Below are positions 1 through 10,733 of a stretch of 64,000 nt of DNA, one piece after another (the stretch's first letter is position 1; each line of letters opens with the position of its first letter). The translations under genes were made by a program, and so were the position numbers. Under the pieces are notes generated by a model, which worked only from the letters and a program-made list of their open reading frames with translations, was not told the DNA's origin and made no database searches. Origin of the DNA: Streptosporangium sp. NBC_01755 (lineage in GTDB: Bacteria > Actinomycetota > Actinomycetes > Streptosporangiales > Streptosporangiaceae); assembly GCF_035917995.1 (NCBI RefSeq), contig NZ_CP109131.1, positions 1,178,001 through 1,242,000 of the forward strand, written 5' to 3'.

Positions 1-1575
1 CAGGGCGACGCGGACCCGGGTGCGGACGTAGGTGCCCGCCATGGCGGGTCGTCCCCGGTGGGCGGCTCGGCGGCGGGCCCGTTTGAGCAGGAACCAGTGG
101 ACGAACGGTCGGATCAGGGCGGCGTGCTGGGTAGGCCGGTCGGCCAGGAGTTGATCCAGCCAGGCGGGGATCCGGTCGAGGTCTTCGTGGCGTTCGGGCA
201 GCACGCCGGTGTGAACCAGAGTCTGCCGGACGTAGTGCTCGTAGCGGCTGGGCGGGAGTTCGTCTAAAAGGTCGTGACTAAGCGGCTTTCCGCTTGCGGC
301 AAGTTCGCCCAGTAGGTGTGCGTTCGGGCTTCGCCGCAGCCAGCACAGGACACCGCGGGGGTCGTTTGCGGCGGCCAGCGCGTCCTGCAGCGGACGGAGT
401 TGGCAGGAGACCTGGCCATCGGGTCCAGCGAGGTGTTCTTCGAGGCGGAGCAAGAGCACGCAGCGGGGGCAGCGGCCATCAGCGTAGAGGCGTCCGCCCT
501 TGCCGCAGGCCAGGCAGGTGTAGATGCCGGGCATGCCGGCGCATGGGCCGCAGATGTTGTGACCGCTGTCGTCCCTTGCGATCAGAGGTTGCTGCTCGTG
601 GCAGAGGTGGCACTCATCGGAGTGGTCGAGGATGCGGACATAGCAGGCGCCACAGACCGGTCCGCGGGGCCAGTGGGCGTGCACGGGGCGAACCTGGCTG
701 CAAGCAGAGCACACACTGGTGGGCCGGGGCCGACAGGTGCGGCAGACGAGCCGCCCTTGAGAGTTCTTGGTGCAGGGGCGGACCTGCCCACAAGTTGAGC
801 ACGGGGTTGCGGCCGGGGTCGCGCAGTTCCAGCAGAGGTCAGGGCTGTTGGTAGTGGCTCGGCGGACAATCTGCTGGTGCCTGCCGCAGTTCCCGCAGGT
901 CCGGCGAGGCTGGGCAAGGTGGCGGTAGCAGGTCGGGCAGAGCGCCCCGGCCGAGCCGAGGGAATGGGCGCGGCCGACGCGACCGCAGGCGGTGCAGGTA
1001 TGCGCGGGCGGAGTCCAGCAGGCTTCACAGAGCGGCTTGCCATCCGAGCGCCGGGTGGCGGGCATCCGCGAACGTCCGCAGCCCGCGCAGTCCTCGGTGA
1101 CCTGCGGATCCTTGCGGTAGCAGGAATAGCAGATGCCACCTTCGTCGCGCCGAGCGGAAATCCTGGCGGTGCGACCGCAGCGCCCGCACGGCTTCTTGTT
1201 CAGGGAGCTTCGTGCGGCGCATGCCTGGCAGATCCGGCCGCCCGGGCCGCTGCGGGGCAGCGTGATGCCGGTGCGTCGACATTCCGAGCAACCGGGCGAG
1301 GTGACACCGGTGTGTCCGGCGGCGAGCAGGGCCTGCGCGAGGCGCACGATCACGGCCGGGCAACGTGGATCGCCGGAGGTGAGCGCGTCCGGATGCGCGG
1401 CCAAGTGCTCGTCGAGCTCCCGCTGGGCGACGCCGCGTTCGGCCCGCGCCTGCAGCAGTGCGTCCGACGCGGCCTCCGCGTCCAGGTCAGGCAGGCGGGT
1501 GGTGAGCGCATTGATGATCCGGACGCGTCGTTCGTGGCGTTCTGCGACTCTGCGCTCGTCGCGGGTGCGGCTCAC
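1..1575 (-). CDS. multi-zinc-ribbon protein, 3' end beyond window
   Basis: The frame is open from a GTG at 1575 to the window edge, giving at least 525 codons with no stop. Between roughly residues 110 and 410 the translation holds about 18 CxxC knuckles at regular spacing (for example CSEC, CQAC, CGRC, CYSC, CAGC, CEAC, CTAC, CPTC, CGNC, CWNC, CSTC), which would form about nine tandem zinc ribbons. The N-terminal 100 residues and the part after residue 410 lack this pattern and look helical. The GTG overlaps the stop of the XRE gene upstream (GTGA, 1572-1575), so the two are translationally coupled. I do not recognise a named family. Several zinc ribbons in a row suggest nucleic-acid or protein binding, and the tie to a tyrosine recombinase suggests a role in DNA rearrangement or its control. 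Function is inference; the reading frame and ribbons are seen directly. Confidence 0.8.
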   Translation of the reverse strand, partial: MSRTRDERRVAERHERRVRIINALTTRLPDLDAEAASDALLQARAERGVAQRELDEHLAAHPDALTSGDPRCPAVIVRLAQALLAAGHTGVTSPGCSECRRTGITLPRSGPGGRICQACAARSSLNKKPCGRCGRTARISARRDEGGICYSCYRKDPQVTEDCAGCGRSRMPATRRSDGKPLCEACWTPPAHTCTACGRVGRAHSLGSAGALCPTCYRHLAQPRRTCGNCGRHQQIVRRATTNSPDLCWNCATPAATPCSTCGQVRPCTKNSQGRLVCRTCRPRPTSVCSACSQVRPVHAHWPRGPVCGACYVRILDHSDECHLCHEQQPLIARDDSGHNICGPCAGMPGIYTCLACGKGGRLYADGRCPRCVLLLRLEEHLAGPDGQVSCQLRPLQDALAAANDPRGVLCWLRRSPNAHLLGELAASGKPLSHDLLDELPPSRYEHYVRQTLVHTGVLPERHEDLDRIPAWLDQLLADRPTQHAALIRPFVHWFLLKRARRRAAHRGRPAMAGTYVRTRVRVAL

Positions 1576-1892
1576 TGGCCCGGTCGACGGATCGTGGTCC
1601 GCCGAACCTGCGGCGCAGGACGGTCCGTGTCTCCGACAGCCTTGCTGACCTGGGCATTGACCGTCTCGACTTCGATCAAGTCGTTCGGGGTGCATTGAAG
1701 GATGTCGCAGAGCGCAGCGAGGGTGTCCATCGACAGCCGCTGCGGGGGCTGGGTGACCAACCGGAAGACCTGCTCGCGGGAGAGATGGACGCCTCGTTCG
1801 GCGAGTAGCGGGACCATGTCCGTCGTCTGGAACATGTCGCGGTCGGCCATGAGCTTGCGCAGGTTCCAGGTGATCCCCATTTTCTTGATCAT
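1572..1892 (-). CDS. XRE/Cro-type helix-turn-helix protein
   Basis: This 106-residue protein is a single Cro/C1-type HTH domain with a short tail. The segment from residue 8 to 70 (NLRKLMADRDM, LLAERGVHLSREQVFRLV, DTLAALCDILQCTPNDLIEV) follows the five-helix XRE plan, with the recognition helix near residues 38-48. The tail from residue 78 on is short and charged. Its ATG overlaps the recombinase stop (ATGA, 1889-1892) and its stop overlaps the next GTG, so it is the middle member of a coupled set. A small DNA-binding partner encoded with a recombinase could act as a directionality factor or repressor of the set; this is inference. Confidence 0.85.
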   Translation of the reverse strand: MIKKMGITWNLRKLMADRDMFQTTDMVPLLAERGVHLSREQVFRLVTQPPQRLSMDTLAALCDILQCTPNDLIEVETVNAQVSKAVGDTDRPAPQVRRTTIRRPGQ

Positions 1893-3037
1893 TGACTCTC
1901 CCAGAGGTCAGGGTGGCGGTCCTTCAGGGCGCGCTGGATCACCCGGTTGCGGTACTCGTCGGACACACCGGTGTAGATCGCGGTCGTGCTGGCGTAGCTG
2001 TGGCCGACCTGCATGGACACGAACTTCTCGGGATAGTCGAACTCCACGAGGTGCGTGATGTACGAATGCCGCAGACAGTGCAGATCCAGTTCGGGCGGTA
2101 GGCCAGCGGCGTCTCTGGCCGTGGTGAAAGCCATGTTGACGCCGCGCAGGGACATGCGGCTGGAGCGTTCGGTGACAAACAGTGCGGCGAGCTTGCCAGG
2201 TGAGAAGGCGGGGCGGACCTCGGTGCACCAGTGGTCGAGCACGTCAACGATCCAGTCGAACTCCTTGACCGTGAACACCGTGCGGCGCTTGGGCGGACTG
2301 CCGTTGGAGGCCTTGCCGTAGCGGACGTAGAGGCCGCCGTGTTTGCCGTACTGCGGTCTTTTCGGAGCCCGCCGAAGGTCGGCGAGGTCGAGCATCCGCG
2401 CCTCGTTGCGCCGCAGCCCGTAGGCGTAGACCGTCTTGAGCAGGGCGGAGTCGCGCATCGCGGTCAACGCGCCTTTGCGGCCCCGAGTCTGGGCCTCCTC
2501 AACTCGGCTGTCGGCGGCGTCGAACAGGGCTTGGACCTCGTCGTAGGTCAACGGGCGGCGATCAGGCTGGCCCTCGTATTCGGCCACGTGGGCGACACGA
2601 TTGTCCTCGTGGAAGATCTGCTGCGGGGTCTGTCCGAACCGCTCCAGGCACTCCGCCGCCCATCCGTAGCGGCGGTCGGTGATGAAGTCCATAAACAGAG
2701 CGAGGGTGGTCTCGTAGCCCCGCCCTGTCGACAGAACGACCGGCTTCTTGCGGTTCGGGGACCGCAGGTGAGCTATGAACGCCTCACCATCGGCAGGTTG
2801 CCACTGCCACGGGTACTGGTTCGTGAAGTCAGCCAAACGCCGCACCAGCGACATCCGCGGTTTGATCGTCGCCTCCTCGTTGAGGAAACGAGTGCGTTGC
2901 TGGCGTGCCCAGCCCAGCAGCATCGCCTCGAACACCGCGCTTGAAGGGTCGAGGTGGACCACTCCATCGACGAGTTCCAAGCCGGCGGACCCGGCCAAGC
3001 GGCTGACATGACCCTCACGAGCTTCCGTTGTATTCAC
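1889..3037 (-). CDS. tyrosine recombinase (phage-integrase family)
   Basis: The C-terminal half is a typical tyrosine recombinase catalytic domain. Visible active-site elements are the first arginine in YAYGLRRNEA, the HxxR box in LHCLRHSYITHL, the later GHSYASTTAIYTGV with its histidine, and the nucleophile tyrosine in AIYTGV. The N-terminal part (DFTNQYPWQWQ onward) matches the SAM-like core-binding fold of XerC/D-type enzymes. I took the GTG at 3037, giving 382 residues. A GTG at 3079 is a possible alternative, and neither has a clear ribosome site; the open frame reaches 3355 but its arginine-rich first 100 residues look non-coding. The gene leads the coupled set with the XRE and zinc-ribbon genes. 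It strand-exchanges DNA, but no attachment sites were found in the window, so its target is unknown. Confidence 0.9.
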   Translation of the reverse strand: MNTTEAREGHVSRLAGSAGLELVDGVVHLDPSSAVFEAMLLGWARQQRTRFLNEEATIKPRMSLVRRLADFTNQYPWQWQPADGEAFIAHLRSPNRKKPVVLSTGRGYETTLALFMDFITDRRYGWAAECLERFGQTPQQIFHEDNRVAHVAEYEGQPDRRPLTYDEVQALFDAADSRVEEAQTRGRKGALTAMRDSALLKTVYAYGLRRNEARMLDLADLRRAPKRPQYGKHGGLYVRYGKASNGSPPKRRTVFTVKEFDWIVDVLDHWCTEVRPAFSPGKLAALFVTERSSRMSLRGVNMAFTTARDAAGLPPELDLHCLRHSYITHLVEFDYPEKFVSMQVGHSYASTTAIYTGVSDEYRNRVIQRALKDRHPDLWESQ

Positions 3038-3164
3038 CGCAACATTGTTGTGGTTGATGTGATCAAAAGACAAGGACACGGCAAGCTCTGAGTATGCGGA
3101 GCAGCCGTCGGAGACGGCGTTCAGCGGGGCGGCTGCCCGGGTGTAGGCCCCGAGCAGCCGCGTG

Positions 3165-3434
3165 CTACTTCTTCTTCGGGCGGACCGGCGTCTGCGCCAG
3201 CGCGCTGGCTGCGGCAGCCTTCTCCGCCTTGGTCGCATTCGGGTTCGCCAGCGTCTTGCCGGCGGCCGAAGCGGCCTTCGCGCCGGTCTGGCCGGTGCTC
3301 TTGGGAGCCTGCGACAGTGCGCTGGCCGCAGCGGACTTCTCCGCCTTGGTCGCATTCGCGCTGGTCAGGGCCTTAGCAGCGGCTGAAGCAGCCTTTGCGC
3401 CGGTCTGACGAGGATTCTTTGGAATGATCAACAC
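3165..3434 (-). CDS. small Ala/Lys-rich protein with two internal repeats
   Basis: This 89-residue basic protein starts at GTG 3434 behind a very strong ribosome site (GGAGGGGGGT). It contains the same approximately 40-residue unit twice: TGAKAASAAAKALTSANATK with EKSAAASALSQ, and TGAKAASAAGKTLANPNATK with EKAAAASALAQ. The opening KNPRQTG and the unit itself resemble a widespread family of short bacterial proteins of unknown function that usually carry one copy; that comparison is from memory. It lies upstream of the recombinase on the same strand, 127 bases before the chosen recombinase start. It could be the first gene of the set or an independent gene. No function can be assigned. Confidence 0.75.
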   Translation of the reverse strand: MLIIPKNPRQTGAKAASAAAKALTSANATKAEKSAAASALSQAPKSTGQTGAKAASAAGKTLANPNATKAEKAAAASALAQTPVRPKKK

Positions 3435-3523
3435 CCCCCTCCGGGTCTAATTTGCATCGCGACCCGAAAGCTGATGTCATGCGTGATCTGACCCAGCGCA
3501 TTGACATCAGTTCAGTGCCGCAC

Positions 3524-3556
3524 CGAACGCCTGGCCCCTACAAGGCCAGGCGTTCG
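3524..3556. terminator. 13-bp perfect hairpin downstream of nrdJ
   Basis: CGAACGCCTGGCC (3524-3536) and its exact complement (3544-3556) enclose a 7-base loop. There is no T-run on either strand, so termination is inferred from the stem and from its place between the end of nrdJ (3709) and the start of the small repeat gene (3434). The rest of 3435-3708 shows no convincing gene. Confidence 0.6.
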
Positions 3557-3708
3557 CCGTTCAGCCGCCAACTATCAGCGGCTGAGACGAACCTGGGCAA
3601 TCCTCCGGTTCCGGCTGCGAAGCCAAAGGACAACCACGTTTAACCAGGCCGAGCCATCCCCCACAACGGACATTCAGCACGTTGTATCCGATGCAACTCG
3701 GCCCATTT

Positions 3709-6700
3709 TCAGCTGCAGCCGCTGGTGGAGCCGCAGCCCTCGCAGACGTAGCAGCTGCCCGCGGGGCGCATCTTGGTACCGCAGGTCATGCAGAGCGGCG
3801 CGTCGGCGGTGCGGCCCTGGTGGGACTCCAGGGAGCCGACCCGCCGCGGGGTTTCCACCGGCACCGCTTCGGGGCGAGGCTGGGGCTCCTCGATGGGGGC
3901 CGAGGTGGCGAGTTCGGCGATGACCTCGTCGGTGTGGATCGGAGCCGGGTCCTCGCCACGCTGCTGAGCGGCGCGCTCGGAGGCGGAGAAGACACCGAGG
4001 GCGGCGCGGTCGTCGTAGGGCAGGTGGTCCAGGGCCAGGCGGCGGAAGATGTAGTCCATCACCGAGGCCGCCATCCGGATGTCCGGGTCGTCGGTCATGC
4101 CGGCCGGGTCGAAGCGCATGTTGACGAACTTGCCGACGTAGGTCTCCAGCGGCACCCCGTACTGCAGGCCGATGGAGATGGCCACCGAGAACGCGTCCAT
4201 GACGCCCGCGAGGGTCGAGCCCTGCTTGGACATCTTCAGGAAGACCTCGCCGAGGCCGTCGTCGGGGTAGGAGGAGGCGGTCATGTAGCCCTTGGCTCCG
4301 CCCACGGTGAAGCGGGTGGTGGTGCTGGGGCGCTGGTTCGGCATCCGGCGACGGGTCGGGCGGCTGATCTCCACGACCTGGATCTCCGGCTCGGCCGAAG
4401 CCTCCTGCTGCTCGATCCTCCTGTCCTCGATCCTCTTGTCCTCGGTCTTCTTGCCCGAGGCCGAAAGGGGCTGACCGACCTTGCAGTTGTCGCGGTAGAC
4501 CGCGAGGGCCTTCAGACCGAGCTTCCAGCCCTCCATGTAGACCTGCTCGATGTCCTCGATGGTGGCGGACTCGGGGAGGTTGACGGTCTTGGAGATGGCA
4601 CCGGACAGGAACGGCTGGGCCGCGGCCATCATGCGGACGTGACCCATGGGAGCGATCGCGCGCTCGCCCATGGCGCAGTCGAACACCTCGTAGTGCTCGC
4701 GGCGCAGGCCGGGGGCGTCGACGACGTGGCCGTGCTCGGCGATGAACTCGACGATCGCCTCGACCTGCTCCTCCTGATAGCCCAGCTGCCGGAGCGCGCG
4801 CGGGATCGTCTGGTTGACGATCTGCATGGAGCCGCCGCCGACGAGCTTCTTGAACTTGACCAGGGCGAGGTCGGGCTCGATGCCGGTGGTGTCGCAGTCC
4901 ATCATCAGGCCGATGGTGTTGTGGCTGACCATGCCGTTGGCCACGTAGGTGACGTTGTCCGGGACGGACAGGTCATAGGTCGGCTGCACTCCGCCGTCCT
5001 CGTTCGCCTCGACTCGCTCGAAGAGGTAGCCGAGCGCGTGGCCGAGCCGCTCGTCGAGAAACTCGGCGAAGATCTGCTTGGCCGGCATGCGAGCGACACC
5101 GCCGCTCCTGCGAACCGACTGGAGCACGGTCCCGCGCAGGGAATGCCCCTCGGGCAGGATCGTCTCCCACACCTCTCGGGGCAGGAACACCTGGTCCTTC
5201 CTGGCGGACCGCTCAGGCTCCAGCTCGGCCATGAGCTTGTTCTTGCGGTCTCCCATGAACCCGACGATCTCGTCGAAGCTCAGGGCGTGGTCGACGTTGC
5301 GCAACCGCACCTGGAAGATCGGCCCGCCGAAGCCACTGACCGTTTCACGGGTCGTGGTGGCCATGCCGAGGGCGAGAAGCAGGGTCCGGATCTCACCCGC
5401 GAAGGAGTCCGAAGCCGTCGAGAGGCTCGGCACGCCCTCCAGGACGGCGCCGTCTGCCTCGAAGAGACCACGCAGGAAGGCACCGTAGATCTCGCTGTCG
5501 TTGGTCTCAAGGATCGCCGAGGGGACCCGCGGCGTCCAGCCCTTGCCGGAGTGGTCGATACCGGGAAGCTCTTTCGCGAAACCGGAGGCCTGCCACCAGC
5601 GCGCGAGCCGCACCGACTGGAGGACGACCTCCTGGTATCCCTCCCGCTGGGTGAGCACCGGTTCGAGGTGGAAAAGCTCCTTGGACAGGATGCGGAGACG
5701 CTCGACCACATCGAGGTCGGCGTCCGCGACACAGAACCGGACGCCCTTGGCGTGCAGGCTGCCGTCACCCATGAAGTAGCCGACCAGCTCGGCCAGCTCC
5801 GGCGACACCGTGTCGGGGACGACGATGGAGCGGTCTTCGGCTCCGTACGCCTGGTCGAGCACGGGCAGGGGAACCGCACGGCGCTCACCGACGAGGGTCT
5901 GCAGCTGCATGGGGACGAGGTCACCCGGCTCGATGTCGGCCAGGCGCTTCCACTCCCACACTCCGGTCGCGCTGTCGACGACCTTGACGCGGTGGGTCAG
6001 CGTGCCCTGGACGCGGTAGCCGCCGTGGGTGCGGATGAGACGGGTGGGCTCCTCGCCGTTGACGAAGAACTTCGTAGCCCGGCGCGGCCCCTCGTCGGTG
6101 GAGACCATCATGTCGAGGTCCTGCCAGCGATCGCCGTACACGTTCGCGATCTCGGCCAGGCGGACGAGCCCTCGGTCCGTGGTAATCAGTGTTTCACCCG
6201 TCAGGCACCCGGTGGGCGCGAGCAGCGAGGCCTGGGCGTTGCGGTAGCCGTTCTTCTCGCCGAGCCGCAGACACTCGGCCCACTGCCCCGAGGCCTCGTG
6301 GTGGATGTCCCCGTCCATCTTCTCGAACGTGCGCAGCGCCTCGTTGGCGTCGTTGTGCTTGCGCATGACCCGCTTGTGCGCCTCGGCGTTGCGGGCGTAG
6401 CCGTCGTACGGGCCCACGACCGCGGCCAGCTCGGCGCTGCGGCGGTAGGAGACGCCGGTCATCAGCGAGGTGATGGCTCCGGCGAGGGCCCGGCCGCCTT
6501 CGGAGTCGTAGGCGTGGCCGGTGGCCATGAGCAGCGCGCCGAGGTTGGCGTAGCCGATGCCGAGCTGACGGTAGGCGCGAGTGGTCTCGTCGATCTTCTC
6601 GGTCGGGAAGTCGGCGAAGGTGATGGAGATGTCCATCGCGGTGATGATCAGCTCGGTGATCTTCACGAAGTTCGCGATGTCGAAGGTGTCGTCGTCCTTC

Positions 6701-7851
6701 AGGAACCTCAGCAGGTTGATGCTCGCCAGGTTGCACGAGGAGTTGTCCAGGTGCAGGTATTCCGAGCAGGGGTTACTGGCGGTGATACGGCCCGTCTCGG
6801 GGCTGGTGTGCCAGTCGTTGATCGTGTCGTCGTACTGGAGGCCGGGGTCGGCGCACTCCCACGCGGCCTTGCCCATCTTGCGGAACAGGCTCCTGGCGTC
6901 GACCTTCTCGATGACCTCGCCGGTGAGGCGGGCGCGCAGGCCGAACTCCTCGCCCTTCTCCACCGCGCGCATGAACTCGTCGGAGACGCGCACGGAGTTG
7001 TTGGCGTTCTGGTACTGGACGGAGACGATGTCCTTGCCGCCCAGGTCCATGTCGAACCCGGCGTCGCGGAGGGCGCGGATCTTGTCCTCCTCGCGCGCCT
7101 TGGTCTCGACGAACTCCTCGATGTCGGGGTGGTCGACGTCGAGGACCACCATCTTGGCGGCGCGGCGGGTGGCGCCCCCGGACTTGATGGTGCCCGCCGA
7201 GGCGTCCGCTCCGCGCATGAAGGAGACCGGGCCGCTGGCGGTGCCGCCGCTGGAGAGGAGCTCCTTGGAGGAGCGGATCCTGGAGAGGTTGACGCCGGAA
7301 CCGGAACCGCCCTTGAAGATCACACCCTCTTCCTTGTACCAGTCGAGGATCGACTCCATCTGGTCGTCGACGGCCAGGATGAAGCAGGCGCTGACCTGCT
7401 GCGGCGACGCGGTGCCGACGTTGAACCAGACGGGGGAGTTGAAGCTGAAGACCTGGTTGACCAGAGCGTGCTTGAGCTCGTGGTCGAAGATCTCGACATC
7501 CTCCTCGCCGGCGAAGTAGCCGTGCTCGACCGCCGTACGGGTGTAGACGCCCACCACCCGGTCGATCAGCTGCTTGAGGCTCCACTCCCGCTGCGGGGTG
7601 CCGACCGCACCGCGGAAGTATTTGGTGGTCACGATGTTGGCGGCGTTGACCGACCACGACTGGGGGAACTCGACGCCGCGCTGCTCGAAGTTGACCGAGC
7701 CGTCGCGCCAGTTGGTCATGACGACGTCACGGCGCTCCCAGGGCAACTCGTCATAAGGATGCACGCCTGGGGTGGTGAAGATGCGCTTCATCCTCAGGCC
7801 CTTGCGCGGCCGCTTGCTCCCACGTGCCACCGCACCGGCGGTCTCCGTCAT
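3709..7851 (-). CDS. nrdJ: adenosylcobalamin-dependent ribonucleotide reductase with intein
   Basis: Class II ribonucleotide reductase, which reduces ribonucleotides to deoxyribonucleotides in the cytosol using coenzyme B12. The 1380-residue product contains the family landmarks FNSPVWFNVG, ISACFIL-like QVSACFILAVDDQ, SNPCSEY, and the PTG|TIGLMMDCDTTGIEPD segment interrupted by an intein. The C-terminus has a cysteine-rich tail (CMTCGTKM, CYVCEGCG) thought to relay electrons. Removing the 430-residue intein leaves 950 residues, the normal class II length. The ATG at 7851 has a good ribosome site (AGGAGGGGGAAGTC). It lies 82 bases behind nrdR on the same strand and is very likely cotranscribed with it and repressed by NrdR through the boxes at 8509-8553. 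Confidence 0.97.
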   Translation of the reverse strand: MTETAGAVARGSKRPRKGLRMKRIFTTPGVHPYDELPWERRDVVMTNWRDGSVNFEQRGVEFPQSWSVNAANIVTTKYFRGAVGTPQREWSLKQLIDRVVGVYTRTAVEHGYFAGEEDVEIFDHELKHALVNQVFSFNSPVWFNVGTASPQQVSACFILAVDDQMESILDWYKEEGVIFKGGSGSGVNLSRIRSSKELLSSGGTASGPVSFMRGADASAGTIKSGGATRRAAKMVVLDVDHPDIEEFVETKAREEDKIRALRDAGFDMDLGGKDIVSVQYQNANNSVRVSDEFMRAVEKGEEFGLRARLTGEVIEKVDARSLFRKMGKAAWECADPGLQYDDTINDWHTSPETGRITASNPCSEYLHLDNSSCNLASINLLRFLKDDDTFDIANFVKITELIITAMDISITFADFPTEKIDETTRAYRQLGIGYANLGALLMATGHAYDSEGGRALAGAITSLMTGVSYRRSAELAAVVGPYDGYARNAEAHKRVMRKHNDANEALRTFEKMDGDIHHEASGQWAECLRLGEKNGYRNAQASLLAPTGCLTGETLITTDRGLVRLAEIANVYGDRWQDLDMMVSTDEGPRRATKFFVNGEEPTRLIRTHGGYRVQGTLTHRVKVVDSATGVWEWKRLADIEPGDLVPMQLQTLVGERRAVPLPVLDQAYGAEDRSIVVPDTVSPELAELVGYFMGDGSLHAKGVRFCVADADLDVVERLRILSKELFHLEPVLTQREGYQEVVLQSVRLARWWQASGFAKELPGIDHSGKGWTPRVPSAILETNDSEIYGAFLRGLFEADGAVLEGVPSLSTASDSFAGEIRTLLLALGMATTTRETVSGFGGPIFQVRLRNVDHALSFDEIVGFMGDRKNKLMAELEPERSARKDQVFLPREVWETILPEGHSLRGTVLQSVRRSGGVARMPAKQIFAEFLDERLGHALGYLFERVEANEDGGVQPTYDLSVPDNVTYVANGMVSHNTIGLMMDCDTTGIEPDLALVKFKKLVGGGSMQIVNQTIPRALRQLGYQEEQVEAIVEFIAEHGHVVDAPGLRREHYEVFDCAMGERAIAPMGHVRMMAAAQPFLSGAISKTVNLPESATIEDIEQVYMEGWKLGLKALAVYRDNCKVGQPLSASGKKTEDKRIEDRRIEQQEASAEPEIQVVEISRPTRRRMPNQRPSTTTRFTVGGAKGYMTASSYPDDGLGEVFLKMSKQGSTLAGVMDAFSVAISIGLQYGVPLETYVGKFVNMRFDPAGMTDDPDIRMAASVMDYIFRRLALDHLPYDDRAALGVFSASERAAQQRGEDPAPIHTDEVIAELATSAPIEEPQPRPEAVPVETPRRVGSLESHQGRTADAPLCMTCGTKMRPAGSCYVCEGCGSTSGCS
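4918..6207 (-). other. intein with LAGLIDADG homing endonuclease inside NrdJ
   Basis: The insertion covers NrdJ residues 549-978 (430 residues). It begins with Cys in CLTGETLITTDRG (splicing block A), has the block B sequence GTLTHRVKVV, two dodecapeptide-type helices in ELVGYFMGDGSL and YGAFLRGLFEADG with the endonuclease aspartates, and ends with VANGMVSHN. The residue after the junction is Thr979. All residues needed for splicing are present (Cys1, the TxxH histidine, terminal His-Asn, and a Thr nucleophile), and both LAGLIDADG motifs keep an acidic residue, so both splicing and homing look intact. The insertion splits the highly conserved PTG-TIG active-site loop of the reductase. Confidence 0.95.
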
Positions 7852-9775: not shown

Positions 9776-10486
9776 ATGAGCCAGCACAACGAGAACGGTT
9801 CGGCCGCCAGCGACCTGGCGGTGCGAAGGCGTGACTCCCTTGGCCTCACCCCCAGGCAGCGGAAGATCCTTGAGGTGATCCGCGACTCCGTGCAGCAGCG
9901 CGGTTATCCGCCGTCCATGCGGGAGATCGGTGAGGCCGTTCAGCTCACCAGCACCTCCAGCGTGTCGCACCAGCTGACGGCGTTGCAGCGCAAGGGCTAT
10001 CTGCGGCGTGACCCGCACCGCCCCCGTGCCCTGGAGGTGCGCCTTCCCGGCGAGCCCGTGCTGTGGGTGGATCCCGACTCCGGTGAGGACGAGACCCCGG
10101 TCAGCCGCCCGACCGCCGCCTACGTGCCACTCGTCGGCCGGATCGCCGCCGGCGGCCCGATCCTCGCCGAGGAGAGCATCGAGGATGTCTTCGCCCTGCC
10201 CAAGCAACTCGTCGGCGAGGGCACGCTCTTCCTCCTCCAGGTGACCGGAGACTCGATGATCGAGGCCGCCATCGCCAACGGCGACTGGGTGGTCGTACGC
10301 CAGCAGCCGGTGGCCGACAACGGTGACGTGGTCGCGGCGATGATCGACGGCGAGGCCACGGTCAAGACCTTCAAGCGCAGGGACGGCCACGTCTGGCTGG
10401 TCCCGCACAACTCCAACTACGACCCGATTCCGGGTGACGAGGCCACCGTGCTCGGCAAGGTCGTGGCGGTCCTCCGCAAGCTCTGA
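9776..10486 (+). CDS. lexA: SOS repressor LexA
   Basis: LexA represses DNA-damage genes and cleaves itself when stimulated by RecA filaments. The 236-residue protein has the winged HTH at residues about 24-86 ([47 protein letters not shown]) and the S24 peptidase half after residue 115. The cleavage site Ala125-Gly126 (GRIAAGGPI), catalytic Ser160 ([11 protein letters not shown]) and Lys197 ([10 protein letters not shown]) are all present. The ATG at 9776 follows GGCGAGGAGTTCGT. An SOS box overlaps its promoter, consistent with autoregulation. Confidence 0.98.
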
Positions 10487-10534
10487 AGCACGCACCTTCG
10501 ACCTGCACGTCAACACTCCAAGGGACGCGCGAAA

Positions 10535-10587
10535 CGCCGGGCGACCGGCACCCCGATATCGGGGTGCCGGTCGCCCGGCGTGTTTTC
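10535..10587. terminator. 24-bp perfect palindrome between lexA and leuS
   Basis: The arms 10535-10558 and 10559-10582 are exact reverse complements with no spacer, and TTTT follows on the + strand (10584-10587). It lies between the convergent ends of lexA (10486) and leuS (10734), and probably terminates lexA; a loopless stem this long may also act on the other strand. Confidence 0.85.
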
Positions 10588-10627
10588 GGGTGGCGGTGCG
10601 ACGATTTTCGGGTGGCGGTGCGACGAC
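10584..10627. repeat. 22-bp direct tandem repeat
   Basis: TTTTCGGGTGGCGGTGCGACGA occurs twice head to tail at 10584-10605 and 10606-10627, starting with the T-run of the terminator. The duplication probably arose by slippage; no function is evident. Confidence 0.9.
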
Positions 10628-10733
10628 CGGACGGCAGAGCCCGAGCCGGGCGGGCCAGAGGTCGGCCCGCCCATGAAAGCTCGGGGGGCGCACACCGGAC
10701 GGGCGCCCCTCTCGAACGTCCCCTCTCGAACGT

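Follow-up and report, generated by a model that had tools for sequence, protein, structure and literature searches.

The 64,000-bp stretch of the Streptosporangium sp. NBC_01755 genome analyzed here (G000:C1:1178001-1242000, hereafter the window) opens with three coupled genes, int, xre and znr, which encode a tyrosine recombinase, an XRE protein and a protein carrying a long array of zinc ribbons. We propose, with a probability of roughly 0.8, that they form the core of an autonomous, site-specific integrative element (transposon) of ~4.5 kb, which is driven by the tyrosine recombinase and operates through a three-protein scheme. The trio is widespread in actinomycetes, and the family is apparently undescribed: no description of int-xre-znr was found in the mainly open-access literature.

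Match extension between the genome copies delimited an element of 4468 bp (window positions about -759 to 3708) that is present twice on the single 8.15-Mb contig of the host genome. Copy 1 (G000:C1:1177241-1181708) and copy 2 (G000:C1:5509806-5514273) are 100% identical over exactly 4468 bp, lie 4.3 Mb apart and have unrelated flanks, the similarity stopping abruptly at either end. An initial annotation of the window had suggested a module devoted to rearrangement or mobility, distinct from phages and integrative and conjugative elements (ICEs) of known form, and the two identical, precisely bounded copies support this. Positions 1-3708 of the window belong to copy 1, on the reverse strand like all window features described below. 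Its int-side end (3708) abuts the stop codon of nrdJ (3709-3711), and its other limit lies 760 bp outside the window, at G000:C1:1177241. This limit was found by examining the sequence to the left of the window, a step proposed in the initial annotation, which also completed znr to 772 aa; in this genome, the 3' end of znr is 16 bases from the element end. The right end, CCCCAGTA, is common to the relatives L035, L037 and G067. The 4468 bp contain four genes only, the trio and the gene of a small Ala-rich protein, with no relaxase, type IV secretion system or phage structural genes among them and no room for such genes in 4.5 kb. The Ala-rich repeat protein (89 aa; 3165-3434) matches phrog_5079 (unknown function) at 9e-17 and would be the product of an internal cargo or accessory gene. 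It had been suspected of belonging to the module, and its gene indeed lies within the limits of both copies, with a homologue in the same place in L038. Small non-autonomous copies were ruled out, as the right-end pattern occurs in this genome only at the two full copies.

These limits raise the question of where such elements insert. The target of copy 1, nrdJ (3709-7851), encodes a class II ribonucleotide reductase with an intein (Ribonuc_red_lgC, 5e-33; LAGLIDADG_3). Six elements, namely the present one, two from Streptomyces and three from Streptosporangiaceae, are located directly after an nrdJ stop codon, whether this is TGA, TAA or TAG, and in all six the stop codon is followed by three variable bases and then by a conserved arm, which contains GGC in five cases and GAGC in one. 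Copy 2 interrupts the gene of a Tn3-family transposase, and its joined flanks encode a continuous DDE domain (PF01526, 9.8e-17). Comparison of this occupied site with an empty one, which had been suggested as a way to find the element ends, gave a clear result: the joined flanks align with an uninterrupted homologue from another genome of the host family at 80% identity over 217 bp with 0 gaps, and therefore no bases were duplicated, lost or left behind by the insertion. No direct repeats were found at either insertion. On a Frankiaceae metagenome contig (L037), a relative disrupts a Tn3 transposase, and the Pfam column at which it does so is that of copy 2, which makes two such cases in total; a plasmid relative (L045) runs into a DDE transposase gene.

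To avoid hand-picked targets, 246 genomes were searched with a left-end pattern that contained no target sequence. This target-blind search returned five additional sites and zero control matches. Apart from L137, these sites, four in number, belong to a sister group and split tyrosine-recombinase genes one base past the same codon, behind an HxLRH box (LHGLRHTWATLA, LHQLRHTHATEL, LHDLRHAFATML and FHELRHFYASML). All four interrupted genes match PF00589, two of them weakly, and two of the copies are in one genome. A common target motif, CTGCGGC at position -28 in nrdJ, Tn3 and recombinase genes, was striking by eye, but its ranking against all other positions was unconvincing: L138 and L139 were in the top 1.5-2.3% and L136 in the top 7%, while Tn3_G000b and L141 were ordinary.

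Another important question is whether the three genes stay together. In the window, int and xre overlap by ATGA (reverse complement of 1889-1892) and xre and znr by GTGA (reverse complement of 1572-1575), exactly as the initial annotation had read them; translational coupling of the three genes is thus likely judging from the sequence, and their products might be made in a fixed ratio. At loci with enough flanking sequence, int ends no more than ~55 bases from the start of xre, and znr comes immediately afterwards. The order int-xre-znr is kept in nearly all of these loci, with Int identities from 76-86% in close relatives to ~45% in distant ones, and at unrelated chromosomal and plasmid sites, so the genes are neighbours elsewhere too, contrary to one of the outcomes that would have refuted the initial annotation. 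The order is broken in a few decayed copies and in one metagenome contig (L104/L039, G032:C162), where three xre-znr pairs follow one another in tandem on the same strand and a single int was detected. Relatives of znr are found in 302 plasmid records, mainly from Streptomyces and Rhodococcus. On the Rhodococcus plasmids (L117-L122), an extra recombinase gene lies upstream of int, xre and znr, and there is a further coupled gene for a 350-aa protein. The upstream integrase was considered as an interrupted target and rejected; the gene is complete, and these elements therefore represent a larger variant. Among the computable comparisons, with the Int of L035 left out, dN/dS across int, xre and znr ranged from 0.06 to 0.44, well below 1, which indicates that all parts are under purifying selection.

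Int (1889-3037; ~382 aa from the GTG at 3037) matches PF00589 at 1.2e-17, in agreement with the first call of a tyrosine recombinase, and its catalytic residues R214, K247, H325, R328, H351 and Y360 are invariant in 11 of 11 relatives. The window encodes the GTG start and the first 525 codons of znr (1-1575), the C-terminal third lying outside. The predicted protein contains nine zinc ribbons, i.e., 18 CxxC motifs, whose pairs lie at residues 96-372, all in the part encoded by the window; the initial count of about 18 was accurate, and 1000 shuffles of the whole protein averaged 1.9 such motifs and never had more than 6. In relatives, the CxxC count varies from 2 to 18, and dN/dS is higher for the zinc region (0.23-0.31) than for Int (0.12-0.17), which indicates faster evolution of the former. 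The earlier statement that the protein could not be assigned to a named family also stands, as there was no NCBIfam or PHROG match, Pfam gave only a sub-threshold double-zinc-ribbon, and no housekeeping family, which would likewise have refuted the initial annotation, emerged. By sequence profile, the C-terminal 290 residues match XerD (9.3e-5), and seven of 19 znr members match PF00589, at up to 3.5e-4. The full-length model was poor at the C terminus, and this part was therefore folded alone. The best Foldseek matches of the resulting AlphaFold model were tyrosine recombinases (2e-4), and VIA-align superimposed it on recombinases with a Z score of 11.8 and a root-mean-square deviation of 7.1 over 261 residues. 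Aligned to XerD by profile, znr does not conserve the catalytic set: proline or another residue stands opposite the first arginine, the tyrosine and the box-II histidine are missing, and only the box-II arginine is retained. Thus, profile and model identify the C terminus of znr as a predicted inactive tyrosine-recombinase fold with a core-binding and a catalytic domain.

The middle gene, xre (1572-1892), encodes a 106-aa Cro/C1-type helix-turn-helix protein (HTH_26, 8.2e-17), again as first annotated. A 17-bp palindrome, GTTGCATCNGATGCAAC, is found roughly twice per element (expectation 0-0.4), just within the left (int-side) end and at the int start. Both sites are present in nine of 12 elements with up to four mismatches, and the present element, L046 and L113 have only one clear site each. 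Here the clear copy, GTTGCATCGGATACAAC (3681-3697; one mismatch), lies just inside the int-side end and is proposed as an XRE operator or accessory site. A degenerate second copy, GTTGCGGTGAATACAAC (3027-3043; five mismatches to the consensus), covers the proposed int start codon, a position that agrees with the second copy of the relatives. In the distant relatives L106, L107 and L108, a perfect palindrome is located at the int start, and two of them share the centre GCATCTGATGC. The palindrome is probably the XRE operator, and XRE, with the palindrome as its natural ligand, may act both as the int repressor and as an end-binding factor.

These data suggest the following scheme. Int would cut the element ends and the target and join them, most likely by exchanging strands between the target and the ends joined in a putative circular intermediate, whose joint would read CCCCAGTA-AAATGGGCC. 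The znr protein would be a recombinase paralogue that gave up catalysis and acquired nine zinc ribbons, and it probably contacts DNA beside Int at the ends, the target or both, aiding synapsis and site choice. XRE probably binds the palindrome near the int-side end as well as at the start of int, represses int and acts as a directionality factor. Insertion is precise, without target duplication, at the nrdJ end, at a fixed Tn3 codon or, in the sister group, at the HxLRH box of a recombinase. A bolder extension, which we consider unlikely, is that the zinc-ribbon array on the inactive recombinase is a modular target reader, with members of different ribbon number steering one conserved integrase to different conserved gene motifs. 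The variable ribbon number would fit such a role; target reading is offered as a conjecture because the shared-motif test was not convincing. If it holds, the family spreads in the manner of homing elements, aiming at sequences that evolution cannot change: the redox end of nrdJ, the core of the Tn3 transposase and the HxLRH box.

Several observations speak against the proposed element and its three-protein scheme. Movement, whether as a circular form, excision or transposition, has not been observed. No motif shared among the unrelated targets rose clearly above chance. For terminal inverted repeats in G000, L035 and L037, alignment scores did not exceed those of shuffled sequence, which leaves only a CCCA-6 bp-TGGG symmetry at the putative joint, and this is not significant. 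The model of the znr C terminus is moderately confident (pLDDT 71, pTM 0.49), and a profile-profile comparison of this region with the Int alignment produced no match.

The alternatives have to be weighed against known systems, among them the strand-biased circularizing integrative elements (SEs) reported from Gammaproteobacteria, which carry IntA, Tfp, IntB and Srap, have two active recombinases and leave a 6-bp footprint next to the distal end (PMC10214605). The element described here resembles them in being site-specific and non-conjugative, in its coupled recombinase operon, in having a recombinase-fold protein without catalytic residues and a small accessory protein, and in its insertion into a transposase gene, which is known for SE-6945 (in insJ). 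It differs in its one active recombinase, its one XRE protein, its zinc ribbons and its actinomycete hosts, and it has neither an intA-tfp-intB-srap set nor the 6-bp footprint. In the GInts (ginABCD; PMC5385486), too, several genes form a tyrosine-recombinase operon, whose members include the partly inactive GinC and the small HLH protein GinD. GInts, however, carry three recombinase-like genes, large cargo and imperfect flanking direct repeats, while the present element has only one intact recombinase and limited cargo and lacks direct repeats. Tn554 and the actinobacterial pairs related to it (Van Houdt et al.; PMC3414803) combine a typical and an abnormally long recombinase on actinomycete plasmids and chromosomes, occur in several identical copies per genome and cause no target duplication; however, both of their recombinases (TnpA and TnpB, with TnpC in some) have the catalytic motif, while znr is non-catalytic, bears zinc ribbons and is preceded by an xre gene in the middle of the operon. 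One could still argue that the element is an unrecognized Tn554-related or SE member in which znr is a diverged partner recombinase and transposition follows a copy-out/copy-in route with a 6-bp footprint. An ordinary recombinase coupled to a long recombinase-fold protein and a small accessory protein, site specificity and the lack of target duplication would all fit (PMC3414803, PMC10214605), as would the absence of catalytic residues from SE Tfp and GinC and the transposase-gene site of SE-6945. Against it stand the single recombinase with catalytic residues and the flanks that join without a gap or footprint relative to the empty site. Moreover, the profile of the znr C terminus found no match in pRHL3, pBD2 and pNL1, which are said to carry Tn554-related pairs, or in the SE-bearing pAQU1, with positive controls at 1e-85 to 6e-15, and the long recombinase of pREL1 scored E 0.5. 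The actinomycete Famint41/36 pairs were suspected to be the same system and rejected. We regard this explanation as quite improbable. In its workings the element resembles SEs, GInts and Tn554, but by the tests made it belongs to none of them.

Two further readings concern the role of znr and the reality of the transposition unit. The znr protein could lie outside the recombination machinery and be a passenger on an ordinary integrase-plus-repressor element, serving for instance in immunity, anti-defence or RNA binding; zinc ribbons often bind RNA or proteins, and the widely varying ribbon number and the faster evolution of the zinc region relative to Int could be explained in this way. We find it rather unlikely, since znr is fused to a recombinase-fold domain, always stands beside xre, is coupled by the GTG overlap in close relatives and ends less than 20 bp from the element end in this genome, whereas passengers would be exchanged among relatives. 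That the duplication is merely segmental or an assembly artefact, and the trio a stationary rearrangement module, would suit the presence of both copies in one sequenced genome only and the lack of any observed movement. This explanation is refuted in the main and hardly tenable: the two copies have distinct flank pairs on one contig, the exact limits agree, on the left as on the right, with the element ends seen in relatives from other genera, and joining the flanks restores one gene. The proposed element is also distinct from the remaining systems. Recombinase in trio (RIT) elements are similarly small and have three coupled genes, but all three are catalytic recombinases and the elements have terminal inverted repeats, compared with one such recombinase and repeats not above shuffles here; ICEs and integrative mobilizable elements are set apart by the absence of a relaxase among the four genes. 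The phage repressors MrpR/YopR and SroF, which are among the structural matches of znr (Z ~9-10), also bind DNA through a recombinase fold that performs no catalysis and are thus precedents for such a fold. These phage regulators are not known to carry zinc ribbons or to form part of a recombination operon.

The element defines a family of integrative elements that is compact, widespread in actinomycetes and apparently undescribed. Its ends and an empty site are named and an operator is proposed, so it can be tested at once. Catalysis by one recombinase and a non-catalytic partner of the same fold are separated more cleanly than in SEs and GInts. Members of the family nest in conserved motifs of the recombinase and transposase genes of other mobile elements, and the 3' end of nrdJ, for which no paper describing an integration site was found in the mainly open-access literature, joins the list of such sites. 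A compact and precise integrase system for high-GC hosts could also serve as a tool.

A number of additional observations were made on relatives and on znr. A remnant of a third, diverged znr is present in the same genome (G000:C1:1929986-1930621; 32% identity to residues 552-766), and a decayed trio on pREL1 (L052, 185.9-188.4 kb) has a third gene that is annotated as an integrase and matches the znr profile at 2e-15. In the plasmid collection, 43 Acinetobacter records match znr, possibly through an unrelated zinc-ribbon protein. A viral origin was considered and rejected: the viral contig collection contained no relative of the element, and the zinc ribbons gave only two matches in phage records, both from Acinetobacter and both weak and partial. 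In Streptomyces L035, an additional cargo gene for a lipoprotein-like product (10411-10713) lies between znr and the right end.

The surroundings of nrdJ are also of interest. Its intein carries a LAGLIDADG domain and an integrative element sits at its end; nrdJ thus hosts two different selfish elements. The block that adjoins nrdJ here is located from less than 2 kb to ~24 kb from nrdJ in 16 genomes of the genus (L083-L100), and this varying distance gives the 3' side of nrdJ the appearance of a variable region, in which the genus genomes yielded no Int homologue. The sequence behind copy 1 (L003, G000:C1:1177141-1177240) and the nrdJ-adjacent sequences in G142, G156, G123 and G159 resemble the left arm and terminator of L035/L036, that of G159 including the palindrome as well, and to judge from this resemblance they look like scars of earlier insertions. 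Finally, G085 contains a distant relative in two 3.8-kb copies (L101 and L102) that are 98% identical and have similar int-side flanks, which suggests another specific target.

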